NCBI GenBank assembly: GCA_002105175.1
Contig: MCGE01000022.1
Span: 1 to 64,000 of the forward strand
Origin: Absidia repens
Taxonomy: Eukaryota; Mucoromycota; Mucoromycetes; Mucorales; Cunninghamellaceae
DNA length: 64,000 nt
Direction: 5' to 3'
This document shows, one piece after another, positions 3,901 through 28,982 of this stretch. Both the position numbers and the translations under genes were made by a program. Below the pieces are notes generated by a model. The model did no database searches. It saw only the letters and a program-made list of their open reading frames with translations, and was not told the origin of the DNA. Within the stretch, counting starts at the first letter, position 1. Every line of letters begins with the position of its first letter.

Positions 3901-6900
3901 GAAAGCTCAACAAAAACGAATCCGTAAATATCTTCGTATGATGGCTCAGCCTACACCTGGCAACTTGGCAGCTTGGGAAGAAGTATACAAACGATGGAAG
4001 GAACTGACAAAATTCATACGACAACTCGAGGATACTGGTATGGATAGCAACCCATCAACAAAAGAACGACCTTTCCGGAAGCGGCTGGAGATGGATGACG
4101 AAAAATCGACCGAGTGGCAAAATTATACCGGATTCTTGACTTCTCTTGGTGTTTGTTGCTTGACTGATGATGTTGAAATTGTTACAATGGATACTGGTGG
4201 ACGATTTTCCGATGTGACGGCACACAGTGGTACAAATGGTAGTGTCGGAAGTGGTAGCGGGCGGCGAATGTCTGCCTCCAGTGACCCCAGCAGAATGGTG
4301 GATCGATTTATGGCCGAAATTACAGATCTTTTGGTGTCCGATAATGTGTTTATTCGTGAAGGTGTCAAGGATGCTTTAGGTAATGATTTATCCCCTGCCT
4401 TGTATGCTATGCTCTTCCGTCACTTGACCTCTATGACTTCCAAATTATTCTCAAATGATGAACCGATCACCGGGATGACCAATACTTTATTTGTGGATCA
4501 AGCCGCTCTTGTACTCAAATTGCTTCTGAACAGATTGATGGACCCCAATGATTGTTTGATGAATATTGAATTTGGTGCTTTTGTTAATCAGTTTACAAAA
4601 TATGTGGATGCTCTCCCCAATTCTTATGTCACATTACGGATCAAGATCAAGATATGCTCTTTGGTGGAAGCTTGCCTGTCAAAAAAGGAACAAATTATCA
4701 TTGGAAATGAAACACATCTTCGAAACAAGTTATTGGGTATCATAAAGGGATGGACAAGTGATTATTTGGTGGACGTGACTACTGCCTCTCAAAATGACAA
4801 GTTACAACGTGATTTAGATCAAGCATGTCTTCGAACGATGGTACACTTATTACACCAACTTCCCCTTCAGCCCTTGGAACCTGTACGAACAACGGATGCC
4901 TTTCATACAAAAAGTCAACTGTTTTATGGATACTTTGACTTCTTCTTGAAACTGTTAGCACGCTGTGGACATACAGAGGTAACTTTTCAAAAAAAAAAAA
5001 AGATAAATATATGCTCATTCATTTTTTTAATATATGTTTTCTCCAGTCAAACCAAGGAAACAAGAATGTTGTATCTACTCCAAACAAGGTAAGTTAATAG
5101 CATCTCATACTTATATGTGCCAGTGTATTTATTTTATATTTATTTATTACTAATGCAAAGGAACTATTGCCCCTGAAAAACTATATTGTTTCTGCAATGA
5201 CAAATATGCTTAATGCCAACATCGATGCTGGTCTGAAATTCTCCATGGCTATGGGCTACCACGAAGATCCAAGTACAAGAACAGCCTTTATCCAGGTGCT
5301 TACCAATATTCTCAATCAAGGTGTGGAATTTGACACATTGGCAGAAAATGTTACCACGAGCCGATATGATAAACTACTGGATGTAAGTTGCAACAGAATG
5401 ATCAAAAGAAGCTGGTAAACAGTGGATATGAAAACTTAGCATTTCTAATTGTTGCGTACTATTAGATGATAGTAGAATCTGACATGGAAATTGCTTTATC
5501 CTTGTGTGAAGTTTGCCCTGCTATCGACACCACTGGGCTCGCCGAAGTACTTCTGGCTTGTTTCGAATCACGACGAAAGGAATTGATGCTGATGAAAGCT
5601 GTGATTGATAGAGAAGTGATGGCAACTGAACAGGAAGCAACATTATTACGGGGAACAACAATGGGGATCAAGCTTATATCAACTTTTGCTAAGATGCTCT
5701 GTTTGGATTACGTGCGGAGTACTTTGATGCCGGTACTGACCCAGATTAACACATGGAATGACAACGAAACAACTTTTGAATTGGATCCGCATAAATTTGG
5801 TCCCAACGATGATGCGACTCGGAACAGAGCCAATGTGATTCGTGCTACGGAATTATTACTTGCTGCTATTTGTATGTCTGCTGAAAAAGCTCCAAGGTAT
5901 ATAAGAATTATGCGTACTATATCGCTGAACGATCACTGACTGACTATATCACTGTTTTTTTTTTTTTAATACTAGGGCATTCCGGGAAGAATTACATCTA
6001 ATTGCTGAAGCGGTACGGAAACGATTCCCGGAAGCAAAATACACGGCCGTTGGTGGTGTGGTTATTCTTCGACTCTTTGGTCCTGCCATTGTCTCTCCTG
6101 AACATTCTGGATTCTGCAAATCTGCTGTACCCAGAAACAGCAACGTCCGCAAGCTCTTACTTCAAGCAACACGGGTGATCCAAAATCTTGCCAGCAACAT
6201 CTTATTTGGCTCCAAGGAAACACATATGATTGTATTGAACGATTTTTGACCAACAACATTTACCAAGTGACGAGCTTTTTACGGGAAATATCATCATTAC
6301 CAAAAGAGTTGGACGTTGTAGAACAATGCAACACGGTGCGAATGGACCAAAATGGATATATTCGACTTCATCGGTATCTTTCGGATAACTTGGAACGAAT
6401 GTCACGGGATTTATCGAACCGGCGAGTCAAGACGTCAACTTCTGGCAGCACACAGAAATTATTGGATTTGAAACGCACTATGGACCGTCTCTCAAATCTG
6501 CTTGCACAACTTGGTCGACCATCAGAAATATCGGACTTCGGAGTAACGTACTATACACGCAGCTCTCCAAACGTAGGCAATAATCAACAAGTCAATGAAT
6601 TTATGAAACGCAATGCCCATCGTGATATAGCAAGTATCAGCTCCAGCAACTTCTTTTATCTTGGTGGTACTTCCAAGGCTGGTTACCCTGTGTTTTACCT
6701 TATTTCTAGAAATGTGGATGCTCAGTACATGGACTTTGAATTGGTAGTTTGCCATATGCTAAAGGTAAAAAGATACATGGGAACATAATTTTGTCATGAC
6801 ACGCATATGTTAACCTGTTTTTTTGTGTTATGTAGGTCATGGAACCTTATTTGAACACTCCTTTTGAATTTATATTTGATCTCACTTATCTAGATGGTGT

Positions 6901-24097: not shown

Positions 24098-24470
24098 AGA
24101 TCTAATGTACAAGACATGAAAGAACTAGTGGGACATTTTCATTTGGAATAGTCAAAAAAGGGCATATTTTATTCAGATCTGAACATAAAGTATGTATAAA
24201 TTAACACTAAACTAAGCTAATGAAGGCTCCAAAAAGCCAACTAATAATGGGTCTTAAATCTTGAATCAAAATGAAAGGGTTTCCCCATGCATCTTGTAAT
24301 CCCTGAGCTGAAACCCCTTCTAAACTAATCCTGAAACTAATCTAAGTGCAACATGACCTCAAAGAAGTTACAATGACGAAGAAAAAATTGGAAGTAAAAA
24401 AAGAAATTGAAAGAAAGAGAGATGGCGGGGAAAGTAAAAATTAGAGGTTTTCCGGTTGAACTTGAGACGT
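23460..24470 (-). repeat. dispersed repeat R1, copy b (- orientation)
   Basis: On the minus strand the core blocks CTTCTAAAC/TAGTTTAGAAGGGG, GGGGAAACCCTTTCATTTTG and the TTCAGATCTGAATAAAATATG-like end lie at about 24150-24330. Sequence further left (TGGTAGAGCGGGA...TTTCATATTAAGCGACC near 23610-23650, GGGTCAGAGGA near 23761) aligns with the corresponding parts of copies c and e. The element is interrupted by an A43 run at 24052-24094. Ends are approximate. Confidence 0.68.
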
Positions 24471-24942
24471 TTTTTTTTTTTTAGACGAAAATAAACTCCG
24501 CTCGAGACGATTCAGCTTTCAATTTTGGACATTTTATTCAACATAGTTTAGACTAAATGATAATATGGTTTAGACAATCGTATATTTTATTTTAAACCGA
24601 TCTCTTTTTGAAGACACCTCTCCCAATATGTTTTTGAGTGCCTAATGGCTTACCCCTCTTTCTTTTTAATATATTAATGCATAGGAAAAAAAAAAACCGC
24701 AGCTCGTTGTGTCAAATGCTACATACAGCTGACAAAAAAAAACCTCAACATTGTAACAGCGACATGGATCGTTGATGTGAGTGGAGGAAATGGATGGAAA
24801 TTTCAAAGGCATAGATCATTATCTTCGATTAATATTTTAAATAAGGGTTTACCTCTCTTTTTAATATATTAAATTAATAAACGCTCTGGCGCTCCGCTGG
24901 AGCTTTTGGAAATCTTTCGATTTACTGGGTGTTACAGTTTTA

Positions 24943-25310
24943 GGATTAAAGCCTCCGCCATTTCGCACTTTGGTGGGCAGCCCCTTGGGGCCCAACCGTC
25001 GTGCTCAGCGCGTCGTCAATGGGTTCTTTTTTGTGTGCTGAAAAGAAAAAAAAAATAGTGAAGGGATTAAAGCCTCGGCCATTTCGCACTTTGGTGGGCG
25101 GCCCCAAGGGGCCCAACCGTCGTGCTCAGCGCGTCGTCAATGGGTTTTTTGTGTGTGCTGAAAAAAAAAAAAAATGGGAAAGGATTAGAGCCTCCGCTAT
25201 TTCGCACTTTGGTGGGCAGCCCCTTGGGGCCCAACCGTCGTGCTCAGCGCGTCGTCAATAGATACTTTTTTTTGTGTGTGGTGAAAAATGGAAGATCGAA
25301 AAATAGGGTG
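24943..25310 (+). repeat. three tandem copies of a ~120-bp GC-rich unit
   Basis: Units start at 24943, 25064 and 25182 (spacing 121 and 118). Each carries GCCTCCGCCATTTCGCACTTTGGTGGG, a CCCCTTGGGG-type palindrome, CCCAACCGTCGTGCTCAGCGCGTCGTCAATGG-like sequence, and then a poly-A stretch. The unit is clearly GC-richer than its surroundings. In unit 2 the central palindrome reads CCCCAAGGGG instead of CCCCTTGGGG. A fourth, partial copy is at 26111. Function unknown. Confidence 0.85.
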
Positions 25311-25419
25311 ACTGAGCCATTCGCACTCCGCCTCCATGGATTTAAATTTTCTGTTGGCCATTTTTTTTCTTCCTCCTTCTTTCTTTTTTTTTTTTTTTTT
25401 AACATCAACTTCAACTGTG

Positions 25420-25700
25420 GATTTAGTGATCTTGGATTAGTGATTAGAACTTGAATCAGGGCCTTTTGAAAAGTGCAATACAAACATCATGGGGAAACCC
25501 TTCCATTTTGGATTCGTGATCTTTGACCGTCCTCAAATTAGCATTCATTTTAGAATAGTGTCATTAGCTCAACTTGGCGTTAGTTGTCATAGTTTACATT
25601 GCATCTATATCAGAATTAAACATGTCTTGTCTTTTTATTATTATTCTCTTTCATGCCTTTCATTGTCTCGCTGAATGGGCATGGCGTATGTGCGTGGAAA
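25420..25700 (+). repeat. dispersed repeat R1, copy f (variant subfamily)
   Basis: Contains GTGATCTTGGATTAGTG, CATGGGGAAACCCTTCCATT, a GTCATTAGCTCAACTTGGCGTTAG block and an AGAATTAAACATGTCTTGTC end. It shares these with copies g and h; the CCACGTGAAT block of copies a and d is missing, marking a second subfamily. Confidence 0.65.
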
Positions 25701-25739
25701 AACAGAGTGTGTGGGGGTTGTGGGGTTTATGCGTAGAAA

Positions 25740-26080
25740 AAAAAAAACTGCAGCTCGTTGTGTAAAATGCTACGTACAGTTGCCAAAAAAAAAAAGCCTC
25801 CCCAAGTGTCATTAGCTCAGCTTAGCGTTAGTTATCATAGTTTATATTGTATCTATATCAGAATTAAACATGTCTTGTCTTTTTATTATTATTCCCTTTC
25901 ATGCCTTTCATTGTCTCGCTGAATGGGCATGGCATATGTGCGTGAAAAAAAAAAAAAAAAACGGTGTGTGTGTGGGGGGCGTTTATACAGGAAATGTTTC
26001 TACTTTGGGCACGGAAGCATATTTGGATACAAATATAAAAAATGACAGGAAATGTTTCTACTTCGGGCACGGAACAGTTT
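25740..26080. repeat. local duplications inside the repeat island
   Basis: A segment of about 145 bases at 25807-25950 (GTCATTAGCTCAGCTTAGCG...ATGGGCATGGCATATGTGCG) duplicates 25560-25700 with few changes. An A-rich/GCAGCTCGTTGTGT module at 25740-25790 repeats one at 24690-24740. A 57-base direct repeat (AGGAAATGTTTCTACTT...GGGCACGGAA) occurs twice between 25990 and 26075. Confidence 0.75.
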
Positions 26081-26108
26081 TTTTATTAAAGTGTGGGTTT
26101 CGATGGGA

Positions 26109-26194
26109 TAGGATTAAAGCCTCCGCCATTTCGCACTTTGGTGGGCAGCCCCTTGGGGCCCATCCGTCGTTGTTCAGCGCTCAGTCAGGACTTT

Positions 26195-26200
<6 letters not shown>
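26109..26200 (+). repeat. fourth, partial copy of the ~120-bp GC-rich unit
   Basis: GGATTAAAGCCTCCGCCATT through CCCCTTGGGGCCC and CGTCGTTGTTCAGCGC, about 900 bases from the tandem array. It runs directly into the T51 tract at 26196. Confidence 0.8.
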
Positions 26201-26247
<47 letters not shown>

Positions 26248-26395
26248 GCTGGTATGTACTCTTGTGGTATTACAAATAAATAAAATCTATCTTCTATTGA
26301 AACCAACCAAATGACTTTTTTGTTTGATGATGATGATGTTACCTGTCTCTTTTTTTGTACGCAACATTCGAAACACCTCCACATTTTTACTTCAG

Positions 26396-26438
<43 letters not shown>
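26196..26438. repeat. T51 and A43 homopolymers facing each other
   Basis: An unbroken run of 51 T (26196-26246) is followed 149 bases later by an unbroken run of 43 A (26396-26438). The two are complementary and could pair in a transcript or form a cruciform. Exact lengths are subject to sequencing error. Confidence 0.85.
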
Positions 26439-26440
<2 letters not shown>

Positions 26441-26757
26441 ACTACCACTAAATAGCTTCTGGGGGAGCTTCCTGAAGCGAAGATATGCCATTATCACTTC
26501 GGACGCAGCAGCATTTCAGTATGAAGCAGGGGAGGTTGTGCTATAAGAGAATAGTATGAGTGTACTGTTTTGTTGAAGGCAATGTTAGTATCCTCTTCAA
26601 CTCTTATATGTTACTATACAGTATATTGTCTCTTATTTCACTATTACCGTCTATTTTATCATATCACTGCAATAAAGAAAATCACATTTAAAAAAATATT
26701 TGTGTACGCTGTTTTTGTGGAATACGTGTGTTGTTTTCGTGTTAAATATACTATTCT

Positions 26758-26880
26758 TTGAGGGATATGTGTTGTTATATATTGTAGGGTATATGTTGTG
26801 TTGTTTGTAGGGTATGTGTTGATTTGTTTTTGTAGAGTATGTATTATATTGCTTTGTAGGGTATAGTAGCGTTGTGTTGT
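26758..26880 (+). repeat. imperfect ~30-bp G/T-rich tandem repeat
   Basis: The unit TGTAGGGTATRTGTTG with a T/G-rich spacer recurs about four to five times. On the other strand it is CA/TACCC-rich. Function unknown. Confidence 0.65.
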
Positions 26881-27045
26881 GGAAGAGAAATACTCACAGT
26901 AGACATGTTGTATTTGTGAATACTCGTATGAACGGGGAGGAGGGGAAATGGGGTGTTTGTAAAAAGATGACTCATACAATATCTTCCTCTATTGGCTGAT
27001 TGGGGTATATTTGTAAAAATATAAATCAACTGAATCTTCCATTGA

Positions 27046-27310
27046 CAACAAAACTACGGTGCTACTAAATTGGAATGTCTCGCCCTAGTATGGAGCCTGC
27101 AACTATTCAGGCCTTATTTACTTGGCAAAAAATTCACTGTCATATCAGACCACTCACCTTTACGATGGTTGGTACAATCACCCAAAGTATCTGGCATTGT
27201 AGCAAGATGGATCCAATACTTGGCTGAATATGACTTTGAAATCAAGTATCGAACTGGACGAAAACAGGAAGCCGCTGATTTCCTATCCGGTCTAGGATAC
27301 TGGTCGATCA
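27046..27310 (+). mobile_element. Ty3/gypsy RNase H fragment (relic)
   Basis: The frame from CAA at 27046 reads into LECLALVWSLQLFRPYLLG, then a strand with SDHSPLRWLV and, at the end, EIKYRTGRKQEAADFLS. This is the RNase H-like domain that follows reverse transcriptase in Ty3/gypsy polyproteins; the SDH Asp and the AAD Asp are both present. Only about 85 residues are visible, an in-frame stop sits just upstream (27043), and neither reverse transcriptase nor integrase follows, so it is a dead remnant. Confidence 0.85.
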
Positions 27311-27676
27311 TCATTTTTATTTTTATATTTTTTTATCACGTTCAGTACTCGCCGCCACTTTATTTTTAGTATAAATACCCCACCTTTCCCCCGCCAATTC
27401 TCTTTTTTCTTAAGCTATCTATTATCATATATTTATCTCAATCTTTTTTATAAAATTCAGTACAAAGGTTTTTAACCACCAAACCACTGTCTTATTTTTA
27501 TTTTGTTTCTATCGTCTATATAGAAACTTTCTTTTATTTTTTGTGACCACAAGTCCTCTTTTTTATTTTTACTGTGTGTTATACACTTATTTTTATTGAA
27601 CCAACAAAGGTCAATACTTTTCTTTTTTATTTTATTTTACTCTTTCAAGTTTATTTTTTATAAACTTTCTCTACAG

Positions 27677-28452
27677 TTGGACTTTATCTACAAAAGTTCT
27701 GGTGCTCACTACAAGCGCTAGGTCCTTTGACTGAATTTTATGGGCAAGAGGCTATTCTCGGTCTGCAGTTCGCCAATTACCAAGGAAGACAAAAGATGGA
27801 CGCCGAATTGGTGAATGTGTTGATTGATGGCGGCCACAAGTACAGACCTCCACCAGGTGCCATGGAAAGATCATCAAATATTGGCCAGACACAACAAAGA
27901 AGACGACGACGAACAAGGTCTTACGATACTGATGATCCACCTCCTCTTCCTCCGCCGCCGCCGAAGCTTAGGCAAGTTTATTTGATTTAAAAATGTATAT
28001 GCAAGGCATAATAACATCTGTTGTACATATTTCTGATACATAGAAAATGGAAAAAGGCTCCCATAAACAATGACAAAGACAAGGTACCGATTGTGGTTTT
28101 CGGCGACGCAAAGTTCGGCAGAAATAAAAAAGGCGAAGGATCCCTTGCTGACAAGTGTCGACATCTTTTGTCAAAGGCGGACAAGTCTGGGAAACTTGTT
28201 TTTGTGAATATGGATGAATATCGTACGTCGCAAGTATGCTCAAAATGTGGTCACAGAAAGCTCACGAACGCGGTGATTACCCGACCTGGTGAACAGGCGA
28301 AACGTATGTACGCAGTGTTAGCGTGTCGTCGCTGTAACACTGTGTGGCAACGGGACACCAATGCATCTCGGAATCTGCGCGCCGCTTTTATGAACCTTGT
28401 CACTGCTGGAAGACGCCCTGGGCTGTTGGCAAGACCGACCACTGAACAATAA
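27677..28452 (+). pseudogene. Fanzor-type (eukaryotic TnpB/OMEGA) nuclease, C-terminal part
   Basis: RNA-guided-nuclease-like protein of the IS605 OrfB/TnpB superfamily, C-terminal half only. Segment 27677-27971 (opens after CTCTACAG, encoding GLYLQKFWCSLQALG) carries a GRQKMDAELVNVLIDGGHKYR helix and an Arg-rich/poly-Pro linker. A possible intron 27972-28043 with a GC donor (AG|GCAAGT) and TACATAG acceptor joins in phase to 28044-28452. That exon has VPIVVFGDAKFG, then MDEYRTSQVCSKCGH (conserved Glu plus first zinc-knuckle CxxC), LACRRCNTVW (second CxxC) and QRDTNASRN, the RuvC-III Asp motif, ending at a TAA. The N-terminal half with RuvC-I Asp is not found upstream, where the DNA is T-rich, so I call it truncated. 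The family is clear; activity is unlikely. Confidence 0.82.
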
Positions 28453-28982
28453 TCCACATAACAAATATGTGTTGATGTATACACGTAAGTTACAAGAAAA
28501 TGAAACACAAAGATATTTCATTGGACTCACACTTTCCTTTACTCTCATCTTGGCTCACCTGTTTGTCTCACCTACTTTTGCCTCCTGTCCCAATTACCTT
28601 TTCCCTTCATCCCAATTTATTTTACTTCCTTTCCCAACTTTATTTTGCCATCGTCTAAAACCATTTTACACTCGTCTCAAATTCAAGTTGAAAAGCTGTA
28701 GCAGTAAATAAAAATTCACGTGGTCGGCATTTGAAATATTTTCTGGACACCTTTTTTTTTCAATAGTCTTCTCATTTCGATGAAAAAAACATAAAAATAA
28801 AAGAGTCCAGGAGGCAATTCCCTTGATAGAAATATTGTAGCTATACTCATAATAATAACGATATTATCCACAATAACGATGCAATTTCACTTTCGCCTTC
28901 GTATCGTTATAGCGGGCCTCTACTCTACTTTCGCCAGAACGTACTTTAGCATAGCCTCCATAACGTCGCTTAAGTATTTTTT

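Follow-up and report, generated by a model that had tools for sequence, protein, structure and literature searches.

A truncated Fanzor gene in Absidia repens probably marks an internally deleted copy of a large, non-autonomous DNA transposon

Fanzor1 genes were reported in 2013 to lie in TA-flanked, Mariner-like elements, with families in Rhizopus, Phycomyces and Mucor (PMC3627910). Most Fanzor1 proteins are 600-700 aa long, and that of Parasitella parasitica (PpFz1) carries an insertion in its RuvC domain (FRI) which is cyclophilin-bound through two prolines (PMC11423790). The Fanzor fingerprint has been described as a displaced Glu together with a DPG motif, and the Fanzor WED domain has a TDG motif (PMC10711439). 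What Fanzor does for eukaryotic transposons is unsettled.

Here we describe a locus in Absidia repens (Cunninghamellaceae, Mucorales) within a window of 64,000 nucleotides (contig MCGE01000022.1, positions 1 to 64,000), in which a first-pass annotation had recognised the C-terminal part of a Fanzor-type nuclease. The motifs it quoted are all found on the + strand and in the order it gave (GRQK...GGHKYR, FGDAKFG, MDEYRTS-QV-CSKC, CRRC, QRDTNASRN), the first in frame 27664-27990 and FGDAKFG through QRDTNASRN in frame 28015-28452; the two frames join without a frame break via a candidate GC-AG intron at 27972-28043. The identification was borne out by the Pfam domain PF07282, the displaced Glu and the RuvC-III RD. 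In a Pfam search of the window copy, PF07282 (Cas12f1-like TNB) was found in the second frame at E 8.5e-12, its 45.5 bits lying well over the cut-off of 26.3; the same domain is named OrfB_Zn_ribbon in PMC3627910. A six-frame scan of the window for E-x6-CxxC-x(10,40)-CxxC-x(4,8)-RD gave a single match, and 200 trinucleotide shuffles gave none. The context of the displaced Glu reads EYRTSQVCSKC, placing the Glu of MDEYRTS six residues ahead of the first CxxC, at the displaced 'Ealt' position, as had been suggested. The span 27677..28452 proposed for the gene was correct at its end but not at its start, as the gene part begins at 27713; the stretch 27664-27712 originally lay upstream of the gene and was moved there by a deletion.

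We consider it highly probable (about 0.9) that the sequence at 24442-28700 is a copy, with an internal deletion, of a non-autonomous DNA transposon carrying the gene of a Fanzor1 RNA-guided nuclease. It would thus be the broken remnant of a jumping gene that carried a relative of CRISPR's RNA-guided DNA cutters. Its parts are as follows.

24442..24469, + strand: left end, TA target dinucleotide (24442-24443) and left terminal inverted repeat (exact end pattern 24446-24469); border common to the C8, C12, C15b and C34 copies
24590..24646, - strand: scrap of a transposase-like C-terminus (last ~20 codons of an ORF), reading RHSKTYWERCLQKEIGLK toward the left end
24678..26073, no strand: extra sequence, ~1.4 kb as against ~60 bp in the C8 copy
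27047..27313, + strand: captured ~267-bp Ty3/gypsy-type RNase H coding fragment in the left arm
27710..27712, no strand: internal deletion junction with TAC microhomology; the flanking sides are contiguous here only
27713..27971, + strand: rest of Fanzor exon 5 (ALGPLTEF...GGHKYR...PPPLPPPPPKL), in the frame of exon 5 of the spliced C8 copy
27972..28043, + strand: GC-AG intron (AG|GCAAGT ... ATAG|AAAATGG), predicted from sequence
28044..28452, + strand: Fanzor exon 6 with FGDAKFG, MDEYRTS, CSKC/CRRC and QRDTNAS; stop at 28450-28452
28453..28694, + strand: 3' noncoding arm, expected place of a right-end guide RNA
28673..28700, - strand: right terminal inverted repeat CGTCTCAAATTCAAGTTGAAAAGCTG, then TA (28699-28700)

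The genome (47.4 Mb, 79 contigs) was searched in six frames with the last exon. The search scored 26 candidates and listed 21 matches, at least 12 of them at 98-100% identity including the window copy and at least nine at 30-60%. Stretches of ~9.9 kb around the other 11 near-identical copies and the nine weaker ones were taken for comparison. Full copies of the kind that the first-pass annotation had envisaged elsewhere in the genome do exist. In 11/11 of these full copies the counterparts of 27322-27712 (or a longer stretch) and of 27706 to ~28700 are both present and lie ~3.5-3.6 kb apart, which identifies the window copy as internally deleted. With the missing ~3.5 kb the window copy lost exons 1-4 along with the start codon, the beginning of exon 5 and the RuvC-I DPG motif, the last kept in 11/11 full copies, in agreement with the proposal that the RuvC-I half had been lost. 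The junction consists of the 3-bp microhomology TAC, common to both parental sides (TCACTAC / TCATTAC), and looks like ordinary end-joining. The window copy is an ordinary decay product of a young, unusually large Fanzor1 transposon.

The extra stretch at 24678..26073 includes duplicated ~70-200-bp segments of the left arm. The RNase H fragment is recognisable as RT_RNaseH (PF17917, 6.1e-19 for the same frame in locus L009), and exactly the stretch 27047-27313 has a separate 96% match in L022 (contig C78; L022:9533-9799). This piece hints at a retrotransposon, an identity that was rejected because just ~267 bp are present and because the C3 and C32 copies match the window only from 27320-27322, right of the piece.

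The complete element is ~6.5 kb long. For the C8 copy, in locus L009, we obtained a six-exon gene model encoding 1,233 aa (exons 1-3 at L009 1093-1255, 1325-2247 and 2321-3947; exons 4-6 at 4040-4183, 4271-4706 and 4779-5187). Its exon borders were transferred by alignment to all 11 full copies, the introns being predicted from sequence, and both donor and acceptor dinucleotides are kept in every one of them. Reading is unbroken in four of the 11 (C8, C56, C25 and C39; 1,233-1,251 aa), so some complete copies elsewhere in the genome are apparently intact. The remaining seven have frameshifts or early stops, suggesting that the Fanzor family may be dying. Exon 4 encodes an acidic repeat whose length ranges from 144 to 252 nt between copies, and the RuvC domain has two inserts, one an acidic AAQDDD repeat that varies in length, the other a PPPLPPPPP stretch. 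The residues D879 (RuvC-I DPG), E1156 (displaced Glu) and D1202 (RuvC-III), together with the four TNB cysteines, are kept in 11/11 full copies. Over all pairs of full copies, with exon 4 left out, pN/pS is 0.46 at a pS of 1.8%; these values indicate young copies, and the ratio suggests selection on the protein sequence of the sources from which they came.

The same genome holds at least three further divergent Fanzor-like lineages, L020 (C24), L021 (C34:1.92M) and L024 (C1:1.08M), whose last exons are 33-60% identical. The paralog L024 shares four matching blocks, including DPG and GGEKY, and carries NEAYTSKVCSKC. By eye, L020 and L021 have a common block TTGATGT[A/T]TACA soon after the stop, as well as ends of the type CTCCGTC[T/C]CA.

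By analogy with studied Fanzors a guide RNA at the right end is plausible, and it is here that an alternative reading of the window copy has to be weighed. The copy could be a guide-only satellite, which has lost its nuclease and whose right-end guide RNA is used by the full-length Fanzor of other copies. Its right arm and right end have been retained and hardly differ from those of the full copies, and in the Fanzor1s studied the right-end RNA runs ~15 nt past the target duplication (PMC10711439). The region from stop to right end (~248 nt) was folded for five copies (C34 not among them) at three lengths with 100 mononucleotide shuffles each, and gave z values of +0.8 to -1.9, near the shuffled values, while Rfam at its gathering threshold returned no match in window 24400-28800. 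The guide-like RNA that the first-pass annotation had proposed to look for after the stop was therefore sought by folding and by Rfam but not demonstrated, and the lack of a stable fold argues against a satellite. Pairwise divergence (0.57% in the 3' arm versus 1.7% in introns) hinted at special constraint on the arm, a possibility rejected because the counts of variable sites give it no support (3' arm 7/223, exons 119/3,685, introns 16/384, upstream of the gene 2/159). The arm has variable sites at about the exon frequency and shows no clear deficit of them relative to introns, which again speaks against a satellite, and we regard this reading as unlikely. The last ~110 bp of the arm consist of degenerate 22-bp repeats (periodicity score 104, against a mean of 67 and a maximum of 90 in 2000 shuffles, with the phase picked by eye), which may be transposase-binding sites.

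The ends of the element point to its carrier. Alignment of the copies with added left flank placed the right border at ~28700. The left end reads TA-[C/G/T]AGGTTTTCCGGTTGAACTTGAGACG and the right end CGTCTCAAATTCAAGTTG...AAGCTG-TA, the terminal inverted repeats being imperfect and ~26 bp long. Genome-wide there are 16 matches to the left-end pattern (up to 2 mismatches allowed) and 12 to the right-end pattern (up to 1 allowed), and the reversed control of each gave 0. TA is present at 13/13 left ends and 12/12 right ends examined, a putative target duplication. The right ends of C8, C12, C15b, C25 and C79 show short insertions or loss right before the last AAGCTG-TA, the remainder being constant; these length differences are possibly traces of imprecise cut-and-paste or of end repair.

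Two short elements of ~750 bp, C63 and C67, are bounded at either side by an end of the left type; over their left ~210 bp they are 94-96% identical to the C8 copy at the DNA level. The one at C63 has an uninterrupted ORF with no Pfam transposase domain, the C-terminal 26-37 residues of which resemble ORFs at C35 and C46 (47-58%, E 4e-6 to 5e-5); the C46 ORF (L046) is a DDE_3 transposase (2.2e-28). The scrap at 24590-24646 in the window copy is 89% identical over 19 aa to the C63 ORF (E 8.9e-4), and the last ~20 codons of this ORF occur inside the left end of Fanzor elements or fragments at nine listed places besides C63 and C67, each match being weak alone (E 2.5e-4 to 9.0e-4). The DDE_3 element L046 has perfect 23-bp ends TACAGTCGAGAAAGTTAGGTTGG, and the terminal TACAG...CTGTA is common to it and to the Fanzor element. 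As the scrap resembles the C-terminus of an IS630/Tc1/mariner transposase, the Fanzor element most likely derives from such a transposon that lost its transposase. Of a DDE transposase gene the element holds only this ~20-codon C-terminal scrap, and it is therefore at most a non-autonomous IS630/Tc1/mariner derivative. None of the 25 candidates scored was a complete partner transposase sharing these ends. An IS630/mariner-like transposase at L009:5706-7039, judged by eye and from sub-threshold HTH matches of its first frame, was considered as the partner and set aside, lying as it does outside the right end of the C8 element; it has two overlapping frames and begins ~270 bp beyond that end.

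The failure to find a complete partner and the lack of a Pfam transposase domain in the C63 ORF leave some room for a carrier of another TIR superfamily, e.g. MuDr, in which the transposase-like scrap would be a chance neighbour. Indeed, Fanzor1s of the Mucorales Mucor and Rhizopus have been described in MuDr-type TIRs with 9-bp duplications (PMC3627910). However, the TA at 13/13 left and 12/12 right ends, the TACAG...CTGTA termini common to a DDE_3 transposon and the recurrence of the scrap near the left end at the nine places make a MuDr-type carrier improbable, and we retain the IS630/Tc1/mariner origin.

It might also be asked whether the truncated gene yields a short protein, consisting of the RuvC-III and zinc-knuckle part, that has a role of its own, for example as an inhibitor of full Fanzor. 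The frame is open from 27664 to 28452 across the intron, and the exon 6 protein of the window copy is identical to that of four other copies over all 133 residues. Yet this identity is equally explained by recent spread, the start codon of the gene is gone and the junction has the appearance of ordinary end-joining; such a protein is very improbable, and decay of an internally deleted transposon copy is the preferred reading.

For family assignment, a profile of seven last-exon sequences was compared with the PDB, where 26 sequences were listed at E up to 10. Among Fanzors it matched Parasitella parasitica Fanzor1 (E 2.7e-5), with MDEYRTS aligned to DEFRTS, and Spizellomyces Fanzor1 (5.2e-4); LaTranC (1.6e-5), Cas12g (7.7e-5) and Cas12m (2.5e-4) scored in the same range, so the profile search alone shows only membership of the TnpB/Cas12/Fanzor superfamily. 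The assignment to Fanzor is made because DPG and the displaced Glu together form the described fingerprint. The label Fanzor1 rather than Fanzor2 rests on sequence similarity to PpFz1 and SpuFz1, on host range and on a carrier which is a multicopy element with inverted ends and flanking TA, i.e. a eukaryotic transposon other than IS607. Homolog searches with single exons yielded relatives. For exon 6 these were P0001 and P0002 (72-73%, jgi) and P0003 (36%, ena) among 15 candidates, and for exon 3 Halteromyces radiatus (56%), Chlamydoabsidia padenii (43%; both Cunninghamellaceae, Mucorales) and a third (40%). DPG is present in 3/3 exon-3 relatives (P0004-P0006), two of them from these named Mucorales, and the WED motif, in a domain assigned from order only, reads TNG in the C8 copy and TDG in 3/3 relatives. 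Several searches gave little. The single-sequence PDB search with the last exon produced weak matches only (best E 0.045), the 542-aa exon 3 had no Pfam domain and, also when used as a profile, matched nothing convincingly in the PDB (no Fanzor), and phmmer with the whole spliced protein against the PDB returned no Fanzor. A homolog search with spliced residues 780-1233 gave nothing among 7,989 candidates scored, low-complexity words perhaps filling the list, and structure prediction for the last exon and three relatives reached a mean pLDDT of 41, too poor to use. That the protein is unrelated to TnpB/Fanzor and resembles a zinc ribbon only spuriously, as the weak single-sequence matches to RPB9 and a tyrosine phosphatase might suggest, is hardly credible given PF07282 far over its cut-off, DPG, displaced Glu and RD in order and spacing in the full copies, and profile matches to many TnpB/Cas12/Fanzor structures.

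The flanks of the insertions are asymmetric. At the left ends the two bases ahead of TA are A/T in 13/13 cases and A-[A/T] in 11/13, against a background for TA sites in the window of 42% and 20%, respectively. At the right, 3/11 flanks have A/T at both positions following TA, and the mirror of A-[A/T] is likewise found in 3/11. The left and right flanks differ with Fisher p 0.0002 (A/T) and 0.011 (A-[A/T]) for a bias that was spotted post hoc. The left ends counted were those of C8, C12, C15b, C34, the window, C26, C39, C79, C32, C47, C63, C67 and C5, thus including the Fanzor-less elements C63 and C67 and the fragments C47 and C5, as well as a C32 end ~22 kb away from the Fanzor of C32. Those of C56, C25 and C3 were outside the count and C38 was left out (2 mismatches in its end); among the right flanks C32 was dropped because it has the same flank as C34. 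The second ends of C63 and C67, also of the left type, were not counted; read by eye, they have AG and TT before TA, and their inclusion gives 14/15 and 11/15.

A dispersed motif, AAATTCCGCCCACGTGAATTTTT, has 1,498 sites in the genome when up to 3 mismatches are allowed, against 1 for the reversed control. It was noticed at window 28710 (-) and in the flanks of C8, C12, C34, C5, C15b, C56 and C39. With up to 7 mismatches allowed, 8/25 flanks (4/13 left, 4/12 right) have it no more than ~100 bp from the insertion point, compared with 45/4000 random 100-bp pieces of the window, for a motif picked after the flanks had been seen. It may mark open insertion sites, and the long ORFs in the window stand at no fixed distance from it.

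The flank bias could be a transposase preference. The TAM sits on the left side of a TnpB/Fanzor target, and a left-only bias is therefore as Fanzor-dependent retention would predict. It is possible, though on balance unlikely, that survival of the element is Fanzor-dependent, with persistence only where the left flank is a TAM (A-[A/T]-TA) and with deleted copies riding on the nuclease of intact ones; only at such sites could Fanzor recut and restore an emptied site. RNA-guided DNA cleavage by the intact copies is something that we infer from other members of the family. In the proposed mechanism the transposase of an IS630/Tc1/mariner transposon would have been replaced, leaving behind the scrap of its last codons, and the element would be moved by a transposase acting in trans. 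By analogy with the family, Fanzor from the intact copies would bind the right-end RNA, with the flank beyond TA as guide, and would cut the emptied donor site at a TAM formed by the left flank ending in TA; repair from the sister copy would then restore the element at the cut donor site. No working nuclease comes from the window copy, which keeps both ends and so could still be moved. If survival is indeed Fanzor-dependent, the asymmetric flank signature would be a genomic trace of selection for TAM-bearing sites. One young family in one genome offers unbroken, frameshifted and internally deleted copies side by side at many insertion sites, making it possible to test both transposon retention by Fanzor at TAM-bearing sites and the dependence of deleted copies on intact ones.

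Our literature search, with most subscription papers outside its scope, returned no Fanzor account naming Mucoromycota, Absidia, Cunninghamella or Halteromyces, and the Absidia family may be listed somewhere already. Among described systems, PUl-4 is similar in that its description gives Fanzor1 alone, Mariner-type ends and TA duplications without a transposase (PMC3627910), a likeness by description only. SPu-1 of Spizellomyces punctatus, with SpuFz1 the prototype Fanzor1 element, is described as Fanzor1-only with TIRs, putative TA duplications and many copies, some with intact ORFs (PMC3627910), and its protein is matched by our last-exon profile (5.2e-4). However, SPu-1 is ~2.1 kb with one 633-aa ORF (PMC3627910), whereas the Absidia element is ~6.5 kb with six exons and 1,233-1,251 aa, and unlike SPu-1 it contains a scrap resembling a transposase as well as the captured RNase H fragment. 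PpFz1 (PDB 9cf0) likewise comes from a mucoralean host and is the best-scoring solved Fanzor for the last exon (2.7e-5). PpFz1 has the FRI insertion, whereas the RuvC inserts of the Absidia protein are the acidic AAQDDD repeat and the PPPLPPPPP stretch. The spliced protein is ~2x the usual Fanzor1 length, and its acidic and proline-rich stretches, which separate the RuvC motifs, are unusual. The IS200/IS605-type TnpB of PDB 8bf8, which we take to be ISDra2 TnpB, resembles it in the TNB zinc knuckle and RuvC-III region (E 0.06). Unlike TnpB, the Absidia Fanzor has predicted introns, sits in a TIR element and carries DPG together with the displaced Glu, neither being a usual signature of TnpB (PMC10711439). 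As Fanzor1 in TA-flanked elements is already known, the Absidia family would be a new, unusually large member of that group.
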